Source: an uncultured Allomuricauda sp.
Lineage (GTDB): Bacteria; Bacteroidota; Bacteroidia; Flavobacteriales; Flavobacteriaceae
NCBI RefSeq assembly: GCF_947501165.1
Contig: NZ_CANMUU010000003.1
Span: 186,001-250,000 of the forward strand
Direction: 5' to 3'
DNA length: 64,000 nucleotides
Made by a program: the position numbers and the translations under genes. The notes under the pieces were generated by a model. That model did not search any database. It was not told the origin of the DNA and saw nothing but the letters and a program-made list of their open reading frames with translations. Below are positions 11,651-14,570 of the stretch, piece by piece; within the stretch, counting starts at the first letter, position 1; each line of letters starts with the position of its first letter.

Positions 11651-11661
11651 TATTTTTAAAC

Positions 11662-11679
11662 TTTCAATAATTTTTGAAA
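11662..11679. promoter_or_regulatory. Candidate GbsR operator 1
   Basis: 18-bp inverted repeat TTTCAATAATTTTTGAAA (perfect TTTCAA/TTGAAA arms) overlapping the -33 element of the gbsR promoter. A 16/18 copy lies at 12227-12244. Binding here would block the regulator's own promoter. Confidence 0.5.
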
Positions 11680-11702
11680 ATACAAAAATAATACTATCTT
11701 TG
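11673..11702 (+). promoter_or_regulatory. Promoter of the GbsR-type regulator
   Basis: TTTG at 11673-11676, an 18-nt spacer and TATCTTTG at 11695-11702: a full -33/-7 match to the Bacteroidota consensus. The -7 box ends only 4 nt before the ATG at 11707, so the mRNA should be leaderless or nearly so. Confidence 0.75.
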
Positions 11703-11706
11703 TCTT

Positions 11707-12210
11707 ATGGAATATCAAGAGGCAAAAGATAAGTTCATTAGTACCTGGGGTAGCCTGGGTACGCTTTGGGGCATCAATAAAGCTATGGCCCAAATACAAG
11801 CTTTACTCTTTATTTCGACGAAGTCCTTGACCACCGAAGAGATTATGGAAGAGCTTCAGATTTCCAGAGGTAATACAAGCATGAATGTCCGTCAACTAAT
11901 TGATTGGGGCATCGTAAAGAAGGAATTGAAGGCCGGTGAGCGCAAGGAGTATTTTTCTACGGAAAAAGATGTACAAGAATTGGCTCGGATTATTGCTGAA
12001 GAAAGAAGCCGAAGGGAAATTCAACCTGTCATCAAAACACTTCAAGAAATCAGTTCAATAAAAGATGATGGTACAGAGAAAACCAAAGAACTCATCAAAC
12101 AAACGAAAGCCTTACATGATTTAGCCAAAACAGCTGATTCACTTTTGAACAAAGCCATTCATCACAAACAAAATTGGGTAAGCTCTACGCTACTAAAAAT
12201 CATAAAATAA
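11707..12210 (+). CDS. GbsR/MarR-family transcriptional regulator
   Basis: Winged-helix DNA-binding protein (167 aa) of the GbsR group, named for the Bacillus repressor of glycine-betaine synthesis. Visible family features are FISTWGSLGTLWGINKAMAQ, the helix-turn-helix ELQISRGNTSMNVRQLIDWG, and a wing ending ERKEYFSTEKDV. The C-terminal third is helical, probably for dimerisation. An 18-bp palindrome overlaps its promoter, which suggests autoregulation, and a near copy lies before the next gene. The start is fixed by homology and by a -7 box that leaves no room for an upstream codon. Ligand unknown. Confidence 0.92.
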   Translation: MEYQEAKDKFISTWGSLGTLWGINKAMAQIQALLFISTKSLTTEEIMEELQISRGNTSMNVRQLIDWGIVKKELKAGERKEYFSTEKDVQELARIIAEERSRREIQPVIKTLQEISSIKDDGTEKTKELIKQTKALHDLAKTADSLLNKAIHHKQNWVSSTLLKIIK

Positions 12211-12226
12211 TTTTTTTGATATATAT

Positions 12227-12244
12227 TTTCAATATTTTCTGAAA
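12227..12244. promoter_or_regulatory. Candidate GbsR operator 2
   Basis: TTTCAATATTTTCTGAAA, differing from the palindrome at 11662-11679 at two of 18 positions, both in the central half. It lies 16 nt before the ATG of the membrane protein at 12261. No clean TAnnTTTG box was found beside it. Confidence 0.5.
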
Positions 12245-12260: not shown

Positions 12261-12701
12261 ATGTACTACGAAACTCCAAAATGGCTGATTATTCTGGGAG
12301 GAATAGGTCAAATATTCACAGCTCTCATTTATCCATATATAAGGCACAAGGTATTTGATTGGTATACGGATGTGAAACAACTGAAACCCCTAAATCAAGA
12401 AATAGCCAAAACCTATGGTCGCTATATTCAGGGACTCAACTTTTCGTTTGGCTGTATCGCAATTCTCCTTGCAGAAGATTTACAGAGCGGCACACGGCTC
12501 TCCATCGCTTTAACAGGGCTTGTAGCCGCCTACTGGGTAGGTAAGGTTGCGACACAAATCGTCTATTATCCCATGTACACTATACCCCAGAAACCCCTCT
12601 TCAGAATAGGAAGTTATCTTATGAATACCCTATTTATATTGTTTGCAGTGGTATTTTCCTGGTTGCTCATCAATAATTGTCTGATTTATTCAAATTCTTA
12701 A
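12261..12701 (+). CDS. Four-helix membrane protein of unknown function
   Basis: Not recognised as a named family. The 146-aa product has four hydrophobic segments (about residues 8-28, 55-70, 75-95 and 115-140) and no signal peptide. It lies between the GbsR-type regulator (50 nt upstream) and a methyltransferase (11 nt downstream), so all three are probably co-regulated. The candidate operator at 12227-12244 is immediately in front. A role in lipid or membrane modification together with the methyltransferase is possible but only inferred. Confidence 0.8.
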   Translation: MYYETPKWLIILGGIGQIFTALIYPYIRHKVFDWYTDVKQLKPLNQEIAKTYGRYIQGLNFSFGCIAILLAEDLQSGTRLSIALTGLVAAYWVGKVATQIVYYPMYTIPQKPLFRIGSYLMNTLFILFAVVFSWLLINNCLIYSNS

Positions 12702-12712
12702 AAGTTATAGTC

Positions 12713-13600
12713 ATGAAAGAATTGGTTTTTGAAAAACAACACGATTTAACGGAAGAAAAATTAAGAAGTCACGTAGATATTGTTGATTTCTATAATGAGG
12801 CTACCGAAGATTATAAGTTCTGGAGCAAGGATTTCAACATGCATTTTGGCTACTATGATTTTTTTAGAACAAATCCATTTAAAAGAGACCAAATGCTCAA
12901 TGAAATGAACAAACAGGTTTTAAACAGGTTGAATCTTGACAACGAAAAGCGTCTCTTGTTAGATTTAGGTTGCGGAATGGGCGGTACAATGAGATATGCC
13001 CTAAAGTCCAGACCAAAACTTTCCGCTATCGGGGTCACTTTGTCGGACTTTCAGGTTAAAGAGGGCAATAGACTTTTAAACTCAACGAATGGTGTTATTC
13101 TCAAACAGAACTATAACAATACTTCTTTGCCTTCAGACTCTGCTGATGGTGTCATTGTCATTGAAAGTTTTTGTCACTCAGGCCACAGTATTTCGGCGTT
13201 TAAAGAGGCATATCGTACCTTAAAACCTGGAGGGAAATTGGTAGTTGCAGATGCTTTTTTGAAAAAAGAAGTAGATGAACTCTGTCATGGAAGTCTTATG
13301 GCTTATAGAAAATTATGCGATCACTGGAGCTTGGAAAGATTGGGGAATATACATCAAGTAGTTCGCGAACTTAGACTAGCTGGATTTAAAAACTTAAAGG
13401 CAGAAGACGTTTCATTTAGGGTCGCTCCATCCGTGTTGCATGTACCTTTTGCCATATTAGGTTTCGTTTTAAAAAAACTTTTTAGAAACAAAGTTTTGAA
13501 GAAAGAAAGCTTGCATAATCTAAAGGGTTCTTTTTACGCATTGCTATCCGGCCTACACATGAAAAGTTTTGGATACTATCTGATAAGCTGTTCAAAATAG
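12713..13600 (+). CDS. Class I SAM-dependent methyltransferase
   Basis: S-adenosylmethionine methyltransferase of the Methyltransf_11 type, 295 aa. Motif I is LLDLGCGMGGTMRYAL, and acidic motif and post-motif regions follow (GVIVIESFCHS, LKPGGKLVVADAF). The general layout resembles enzymes acting on sterols, tocopherols or other lipids, and a hydrophobic C-terminal stretch (VPFAILGFVLKKLF) could touch the membrane. The start is taken at the ATG at 12713, 11 nt after the upstream stop, instead of a TTG at 12677 that would overlap that gene. The substrate is not determinable from sequence. Confidence 0.88.
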   Translation: MKELVFEKQHDLTEEKLRSHVDIVDFYNEATEDYKFWSKDFNMHFGYYDFFRTNPFKRDQMLNEMNKQVLNRLNLDNEKRLLLDLGCGMGGTMRYALKSRPKLSAIGVTLSDFQVKEGNRLLNSTNGVILKQNYNNTSLPSDSADGVIVIESFCHSGHSISAFKEAYRTLKPGGKLVVADAFLKKEVDELCHGSLMAYRKLCDHWSLERLGNIHQVVRELRLAGFKNLKAEDVSFRVAPSVLHVPFAILGFVLKKLFRNKVLKKESLHNLKGSFYALLSGLHMKSFGYYLISCSK

Positions 13601-13758: not shown

Positions 13759-13766
13759 TACTTTTG
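13759..13766 (+). promoter_or_regulatory. -7 box for the ECF sigma gene
   Basis: TACTTTTG, a match to TAnnTTTG, 14 nt before the ATG. The region also holds ACTTTTTGAAGT (13704-13715) and a matching ACTTCAA near 13769, a loose inverted arrangement of unknown meaning. Confidence 0.5.
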
Positions 13767-13780
13767 GTACTTCAAACAAT

Positions 13781-14335
13781 ATGGCAGCTCACACACTCAA
13801 TCCCGACAGCTGGGTAGATTTATACGCAGACTACCTTTTTAATTATGCCATCGCAAGAGTCAGCGATGCTGAAATCGCCAAAGATTTAGTACAGGAAACT
13901 TTTTTTGCTGGACTAAATTCGGCAAAGAACTATAAAGGTGATGCCGCTGAGCGCACGTGGTTAATTGCAATTTTAAAACGGAAAGTGATTGACCACTATC
14001 GCAAAATCAACTCCAACAAAGGAAAAGCTGAGGTTCGCATCAATTACAATGCATCATCAGAATCAGAAGGTGACTGGTTGGAAGAACAGGTAGCTGACCC
14101 TTTCAGTAAAGATGGGGACAACACTATTGAAAATGAGGAATTGGGGCTTGCTATCGAAGATTGCATTTCCAAATTGCCCAAAAAGCAGTCCTTGGTTTTT
14201 AAGATGAAGACCATTCAAGGAATGAGTACAGAAGATATTTGTAATGAATTGGGAATTAACCCGTCCAATTTATGGGTTATGATCCATAGAGCACGCACAT
14301 CGCTCATGGGTTGTATGAATCAAACATGGTTTTAG
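13781..14335 (+). CDS. ECF-type RNA polymerase sigma factor
   Basis: Extracytoplasmic-function sigma-70 factor, 184 aa. Region 2 is seen in DLVQETFFAGLNSAKNY and RTWLIAILKRKVIDHYRK. Region 4 includes LPKKQSLVFKMKTIQGMSTE and a helix-turn-helix ICNELGINPSNLWVMIHRAR. An acidic linker of about 40 residues separates them. The next gene, 4 nt downstream, encodes a small Cys-containing protein that may act as its partner. This sigma plus small-protein pair is a recurrent arrangement in flavobacteria. The regulon is unknown. Confidence 0.95.
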   Translation: MAAHTLNPDSWVDLYADYLFNYAIARVSDAEIAKDLVQETFFAGLNSAKNYKGDAAERTWLIAILKRKVIDHYRKINSNKGKAEVRINYNASSESEGDWLEEQVADPFSKDGDNTIENEELGLAIEDCISKLPKKQSLVFKMKTIQGMSTEDICNELGINPSNLWVMIHRARTSLMGCMNQTWF

Positions 14336-14339
14336 ACGT

Positions 14340-14570
14340 ATGAAAATATCTATTGAAAAGGCAAAGCAAATTTGCACCAAAAGTCAATATGGAGAAGCTA
14401 CCTGGTGGGAATTGCTGCAACTCAATGTGTATTTGCTCTTTAGCAAAGAGTGTTCTGATTTCTCTGCAAAGAACAAGAAACTGACTTCCCTATGTGAACG
14501 TGCTGGTTTGGATACACTATCAGAAAATGAAAAAGACGATATGAAGAAAAAGCTAAAAGAACTCTCCTAG
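14340..14570 (+). CDS. Small Cys-containing partner of the ECF sigma factor
   Basis: 76-residue soluble protein with Cys at about 11, 38 and 51 and a charged C-terminus. It lacks a full H-x3-C-x2-C zinc anti-sigma motif and a membrane helix. Its position 4 nt after the sigma gene suggests an anti-sigma or co-regulator role, which is inference. Its last 4 nt overlap the stop of the convergent membrane-protein gene. Confidence 0.75.
   Translation: MKISIEKAKQICTKSQYGEATWWELLQLNVYLLFSKECSDFSAKNKKLTSLCERAGLDTLSENEKDDMKKKLKELS

Follow-up and report, generated by a model that had tools for sequence, protein, structure and literature searches.

The window, a 64,000-nucleotide stretch from the genome of an uncultured Allomuricauda sp., contains a gene for a GbsR-type regulator placed between two near-identical palindromes, which raises the question of whether these palindromes are operators of the regulator, and of what is controlled from them. 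The palindromes, TTTCAATAATTTTTGAAA (core of operator O1) and TTTCAATATTTTCTGAAA (operator O2), had been noticed in a sequence-only reading of this DNA and were recovered as described there, with 2 mismatches in 18 positions (16/18 identical). Within the window the pair is barely above chance, as the match count was equalled in 9 of 100 shuffles, and its significance thus comes from comparison with other loci. The genes for the regulator, a membrane protein and a methyltransferase are the window ORFs concerned, and follow each other in one direction with small gaps (Table 1).

Table 1. Features of the regulator locus in the window.
Feature	Position	Strand	Basis and remarks
Operator O1 (putative)	11658..11683	.	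Comparison of loci; 18-bp core 11662-11679 in 26-bp palindrome AAACTTTCA-N8-TGAAAGTTT
TTTG, -33-type element inside O1	11673..11676	+	18 nt before -7 box; consensus as reported in PMC6847099
-7 box TATCTTTG	11695..11702	+	Ends 4 nt before ATG; TAnnTTTG in relatives
Predicted leaderless mRNA start	about 11707	+	Spacing from -7 box
GbsR/Mj223-type MarR-family regulator, 167 aa	11707..12210	+	Pfam, NCBIfam, PDB similarity
Operator O2 (putative)	12227..12244	.	After the regulator stop codon and ahead of cargo gene 1; no promoter recognised
Cargo gene 1 (mem11), 146-aa four-helix membrane protein	12261..12701	+	ORF and AlphaFold2 model
Cargo gene 2 (MTase10), 295-aa class I SAM methyltransferase	12713..13600	+	Profile matches; best start ATG 12713
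ECF sigma gene and small gene with weak anti-sigma match	13781..14570		Pfam/NCBIfam

Conservation and extent of the operators

From 216 relatives in the regulator search the best 80 were kept (72–98% identity, mainly Flavobacteriaceae by their titles), and the sample thus leans towards close relatives. Conservation upstream of orthologous gene pairs, named in the sequence-only reading as a check on the operators, was evident on both sides of the regulator gene: the core TTTCA-N8-TGAAA lies 44–67 bases before the regulator start in 79/80 orthologous loci, and 520–641 bases after it, before the next gene, in 80/80. The sole upstream miss was L040, in which one core base is changed, and with the window included O1 is present in 80/81 and O2 in 81/81 loci. 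The ten core bases were fixed by the search pattern, and the informative features are therefore the presence of the sites, their position and the remaining letters. The inner letters of O1 are nearly symmetrical over 81 loci (consensus ATAATTAT), and its outer arms lengthen the palindrome to AAACTTTCAATAATTATTGAAAGTTT. Each of the four added pairs matches in 84–97% of 80 loci; in the window copy the right arm has been lost by drift and reads ATAC. The 18-bp palindrome originally described was hence correct as a core and too short as a size for the upstream operator, which extends to 26 bp. The inner letters of O2 are asymmetrical (consensus ATATTTTC, position 13 being C in 75/81), and its outer arms match in 53–85% of 81 loci, a poorer pairing than in O1. 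The asymmetric right half of O2, TTTCTGAAA (TTTCTG), is kept in most of the 81 loci, which the roadblock discussed below does not explain.

The operators are kept while the first gene behind O2 belongs to seven named kinds, so the sites are assigned to the regulator and not to the cargo. Judged by comparison of loci, the palindromes are real, conserved operators of the GbsR-type regulator and behave as its sites, as had been proposed; their conservation, their link to this regulator and the turnover of the cargo all emerge from the same comparison.

In 677,865 bases (80 loci and the window stretch) just six further TTTCA-N8-TGAAA sites were found. In five cases (L027, L031, L068, L076, L080) the site lies 16–18 nt ahead of the second cargo gene's ATG, where it follows a small mem8-cluster membrane gene and counts as a third operator; the sixth lies far upstream. 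The genome search for this pattern, also suggested in the earlier reading, returned 24 places in the 3.73 Mb source genome versus 13 for the reversed control, and 21 of the 22 other matches fell inside mechanically called ORFs of at least 90 aa, so the pattern is rare outside genes. The lone intergenic match outside the locus, C2:727401, precedes a gene that we take, from its sequence, to encode an EamA-like transporter. To follow this match, 40 genomes of the genus were examined, of which 36 matched (source included) and 20 were fetched as loci; none of the stretches from the 19 relatives fetched contains the pattern anywhere, and in the nearest of them the site has one core base changed (11/19 being anchored at the gene start). 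A wider regulon in the source genome was rejected on these grounds, the other matches being in ORFs and the intergenic one not being kept in 19 relatives, and the regulon thus apparently consists of one locus.

A scan of 37 source-genome loci (15 exact and 22 near matches, the latter being some of all near matches) placed 32 inside ORFs of at least 100 aa. Four near matches with two mismatches were outside or at the edge of an ORF (L165, L172, L173, L174), and the one at L174 stands 53 bases before a gene, presumably for a lipid acyltransferase-like protein by sequence reading, as a possible second target. Among 20 places with scattered sites in other genomes of the family, two were regulator loci (L118, L119), and the other 18 had none of the cargo families beside them. 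In most family genomes with such sites no regulator was found; a wider regulon was rejected here as well, and the sites were taken as chance occurrences or as sites of other factors.

The regulator and its relatives

The assignment to the GbsR type made from the letters was upheld by profile matches and by sequence similarity to a PDB entry. The protein matches Pfam MarR_2 at residues 28–75 (31.9 bits, cut-off 27), which places it in the MarR superfamily, and among solved structures its closest sequence homologue is PDB 1ku9, Mj223 of Methanocaldococcus jannaschii (E 4.6e-19, residues 4–148), a match that places it in the GbsR/Mj223 family; the function and operator of Mj223 itself are described as unknown in PMC7396694. 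Similarity to the CudC model NF047500 is nearly full-length (E 1.9e-16, residues 4–154), while the NCBIfam score of 60.4 bits against a cut-off of 218 leaves the protein outside the CudC/GbsR choline equivalog.

The regulator also differs from the osmostress GbsR family in its linker and C-terminal half, where the aromatic cluster of that subgroup is missing, with no F, Y or W at residues 84–156 of the window protein. When 79 regulators (window included) were scored by residue range, a count independent of alignment to Bacillus subtilis GbsR and of individual cage positions, 67 had no aromatic residue in about residues 91–155 and 12 had one. No glycine betaine synthesis, choline or opu genes were present among the nameable gene clusters neighbouring the regulator in 81 loci, the naming having covered gene clusters and, in part, unnamed single ORFs. 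The lack of aromatic residues argues against a choline ligand, and from the cargo we guess that the ligand is probably hydrophobic or membrane-derived. According to PMC6207618, the aromatic cage is absent outside the osmostress group, as in CydE, a sulfate-responsive member of the GbsR family that lies beside cydAB; in the 81 loci no cytochrome bd gene was met among the nameable cargo families, which sets the present regulator apart from CydE.

The regulator was found in 14/60 genomes of the family (E≤1e-10) and in 99/296 of the phylum (E≤1e-8). From these matches 40 stretches were chosen for spread and afterwards sorted by ORF length. The short form was present in 23/40, with the exact core upstream in 21/23 and on both sides in 14/23, and long-form homologues with a C-terminal extension in 17/40, with an upstream core in 1/17. 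The operator thus accompanies the short-form regulator down to about 40–42% identity, across several families. Two short-form loci (L130, L131) have neither site and none of the cargo families adjoining, and in two stretches (L138, L147) the upstream site is present with no known cargo family alongside. Long-form homologues (L146, L149-L158, L163, L164) adjoin a gene of cluster k2, which we take to be YraN-like by sequence reading; this neighbour, together with the nearly complete lack of the operator, suggests a different role for the long forms.

In a family survey, the gene neighbourhoods of a Bacteroidetes group of GbsR-type proteins are described as giving no consistent picture (PMC6207618), and the present regulator probably belongs to that group. 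The constant feature here is the operator pair and not the neighbours, and this combination may explain why the survey found no consistent neighbourhood. No description of the operator or of the cassette, and no later treatment of the Bacteroidetes group, was apparent in the open-access literature (PubMed Central). With the operator pair, an orphan regulator group acquires a defined DNA site, together with a promoter prediction and a handful of target genes open to testing.

Cargo genes and their turnover

Outside the operators the locus is bounded by an M3-type peptidase gene (so named by us from sequence reading) on one flank in 66/81 loci, and on the other by the ECF sigma gene cluster in 73/81 loci (Pfam, NCBIfam), the sigma gene being called as the ORF directly after the cargo in 66/81. 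In the window, the TAnnTTTG box TACTTTTG at 13759–13766 precedes the sigma gene ATG at 13781 and is probably the sigma gene's own promoter. The small gene that follows, with its weak anti-sigma match, forms a pair with the sigma gene that is found downstream of the cargo in most relatives.

The interval from regulator to sigma gene shows 45 gene orders in the 81 loci; its first gene is of one of seven named kinds, except in two loci where the first ORF is unassigned. ORFs, clusters and operon ends were called mechanically, and some stretches stop before the cargo ends. The most frequent members were a DUF1731 epimerase (41 of 81; labelled TIGR01777 in the analysis), mem8 (40), MTase10 (38), mem11 (34) and a tandem mem6 pair (24), followed by DUF2071 (21), DCC1-like (9), fatty-acid desaturase (8), DoxX_3 (8), a second methyltransferase (7) and SRPBCC-like (3) genes. 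The mem11 cluster takes in seven members at 21–24% identity, and the mem8 and DUF2071 clusters are likewise loose. The desaturase always occurs with MTase10 (8/8) and the DCC1-like gene with the epimerase (9/9). The three-gene unit that had been proposed is present in the window, whereas its methyltransferase module did not prove to be a constant partner, since the cargo behind O2 varies by species.

The earlier statement that no recognised family describes the function of the module held for the four-helix protein and failed for several other cargo genes. For mem11 (146 aa) neither Pfam nor NCBIfam gave a family at E≤1, and its AlphaFold2 model (pLDDT 85.6; long helices 7–31, 43–69, 79–105 and 112–145) gave no PDB match at E≤0.001; a VIA second look returned unrelated helix bundles only (best Z 10.0). 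The mem6 model reached pLDDT 70.9 and pTM 0.39. Pfam names were obtained for the CMAS-type methyltransferase, fatty-acid desaturase, DUF1731 epimerase, DUF2071, DCC1-like and DoxX_3 cargo; the SRPBCC-like cargo had no Pfam match and is so called on our reading of its sequence. The relatives of MTase10 are CMAS-type and small-molecule methyltransferases: it scores 41.8 bits against PF02353 (CMAS; cut-off 27) over profile positions 49–172 of 273 only, with two general methyltransferase models ahead, and stays under the CFA equivalog cut-offs (PRK11705, 34.2 vs 400; CfaB, 35.3 vs 650). MTase10 was found in 7/60 family genomes, six times beside the regulator on the same contig and once elsewhere at 35% identity, and mem11 in 2/247 genomes of the class, both times at the regulator locus. 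Going by their names, the cargo genes would encode small membrane proteins along with enzymes that modify lipids or the envelope, which suggests an envelope or lipid role. In L199 (= L061) the methyltransferase and epimerase genes are in pieces while the regulator and both operators look intact, which reflects either a cargo set in decay or errors of the metagenome-assembled genome.

To follow turnover, the fewest presence changes were counted on a tree of the two flanking genes (60 loci with both) and compared with the mean of 100 shuffles, given here in brackets: MTase10 17 (20.6), mem11 16 (18.9), epimerase 16 (19.8), mem8 15 (20.4), mem6 14 (16.4), DUF2071 9 (14.3), DCC 3 (6.8), desaturase 5 (5.8), DoxX_3 5 (4.9) and MTase22 5 (4.9). 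The kind of first gene changed 23 times versus a shuffled mean of 32.5, with no shuffle below 29. By these counts the cargo is partly inherited, clearly so for DUF2071, DCC and the first-gene kind, and yet turns over often; L060 and L047, with regulators 98% identical, have zero cargo families in common. A constant regulator and operators with changing cargo, as seen in this comparison of loci, is a new observation.

Correlations between cargo and flank identity ranged from -0.08 (mem11) to 0.98 (DCC), with 0.87 for the epimerase, 0.82 for the regulator, 0.79 for the desaturase and 0.76 for mem6, and were set aside as evidence, since distant subfamilies are lumped together in the mem8, mem11 and DUF2071 clusters. 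The epimerase, DCC, desaturase and mem6 look vertically inherited, which speaks against frequent exchange of these four between distant species. As parsimony is blind to gain versus loss, and as the cargo identities of several families track the flanks, an ancestrally larger set thinned out by losses has to be taken seriously, beside exchange, as the source of the cargo differences. Tentatively, and with some doubt on our part, the fixed autorepressor and its two operators could constitute a chromosomal slot for interchangeable membrane- or lipid-modifying modules, some of which would bring their own operator copy; the succession of O2, small membrane gene and third operator in 5/81 loci is in line with such a plug-in regulon, in which incoming genes would fall under existing control at once. 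The locus also offers a natural system for the question of how swapped genes stay under one regulator.

Promoters and proposed control of the locus

The sequence-only reading had the first palindrome overlap the -33 box of the regulator gene, and this overlap was confirmed. The TAnnTTTG box was identified upstream of the regulator in 76/81 loci, ending 3–5 nt before the ATG in 68/81 and farther away in 8; wherever scored (76 loci), its TA is separated from the TG of O1 by a spacer of 18–20 nt. Many probable promoters of Flavobacterium johnsoniae are reported to have 4–5 nt between box and start (PMC6847099), and with this spacing transcription is expected to start at the ATG or right beside it. 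The regulator mRNA is thus probably leaderless, a trait predicted to be conserved in most relatives and uncommon in flavobacteria, the share of leaderless mRNAs given for F. psychrophilum being 5.5% (PMC9723704).

At O2 no TAnnTTTG was present from -150 to +60 in any of the 81 loci, which makes the second of the "two intergenic starts" of the original reading doubtful. The exact box was likewise found in 0/81 loci in a 140-nt stretch of the regulator body; its absence at O2 is therefore the norm of conserved coding DNA, and shows just that none has been added there.

Two precedents from B. subtilis bear on the mode of control, since GbsR is described as acting by roadblock and OpcR by blocking the -35 region, one mode each (PMC7396694). 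Like these two and OpuAR of B. infantis, which are reported as MarR-type wHTH repressors with AT-rich operators, an inverted repeat in the case of GbsR (PMC7396694, PMC6207618), the present regulator has a site of this type; it differs in that it seems to combine both modes, at two sites. The position of O1 over the -33 element, the lack of a promoter box at O2 and the GbsR/OpcR precedents favour steric autorepression at O1 together with a roadblock at O2, and on balance we hold it probable, if narrowly so, that a GbsR/Mj223-type repressor controls only its own locus in this way, with release by a ligand and exchangeable cargo. A homodimeric regulator would bind two copies of one operator, as far as visible only at its own locus. 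Occupied O1 would cover the -33 region of the regulator's own, probably leaderless, promoter, so that the regulator would shut itself off, and the autorepression proposed earlier fits this placement; occupied O2, inside the transcribed unit, would halt RNA polymerase before the cargo. A ligand would free the repressor and let regulator and cargo be made together, the species-specific output here being the four-helix membrane protein and the SAM methyltransferase. Within this scheme, we infer the dimer, binding, repression, single promoter, roadblock, ligand class and envelope role. The repressor and its operator pair are also candidates for use in flavobacterial genetics.

The main rival, which we consider rather unlikely, is that of two independent promoters, as assumed in the sequence-only reading: O1 would repress that of the regulator, and O2 would sit on one belonging to the cargo, whose box departs from the consensus or answers to an alternative sigma factor (e.g. 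ECF). A short leader would fit the first ATG, in any frame, 15–23 nt after O2 in 67/81 loci, and O2 has its own conserved asymmetric half; alternative-sigma motifs are reported at 7% of high-confidence starts in a flavobacterium (PMC9723704), and in the 66 loci mentioned above the cargo is followed directly by an ECF sigma gene. Against a cargo promoter stand the missing TAnnTTTG around O2 and the variation at O2 position 8, the place expected for the A of a -7 box: 59 of the 81 loci have A there and 22 have T.

As a rival on the side of function, a module for light or photo-oxidative stress, as in photolyase operons under other regulators, is improbable. SRPBCC-like cargo proteins have a relative (23–34% identity) beside a photolyase of the source genome, and light-induced LitR operons of Pseudomonas are reported to carry the furan fatty acid synthase UfaM (PMC9758184). 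However, a photolyase is present in 14/14 regulator-positive and 38/46 regulator-negative family genomes and hardly discriminates, neither photolyase locus of the source genome has the site (14 kb fetched each), and no regulator copy was found at these two loci or at those of six relatives.

A DNA loop in which the protein joins O1 and O2 around the regulator gene appears still less probable. The O1–O2 distance is 565–569 bp in 49 of the 80 loci with both exact cores, but this narrow peak follows from the constant length of the regulator gene, and over the full range of 565–708 bp the distances are poorly phased to 10.5 bp (R 0.19 for the 21 distinct values, 0.33 for all 80). A role of the palindromes as sites of a different factor, or in RNA as a hairpin or terminator, is very improbable, for even if the O2 arms might pair in RNA, the outer arms of O2 pair less well than those of O1, the same core stands upstream of the predicted regulator mRNA start, and the core goes with the short form of the regulator across families and is all but missing from long-form loci.

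Separately from the regulator loci, three of the six relatives' photolyase loci hold an internal TTTCA-N8-TGAAA. In the photolyase clusters L193, L196 and L197, a palindrome of the type TTTCAAWCCAAATTGAAA lies in or beside an ORF of 88–90 aa, with inner letters unlike those of the operators described here.
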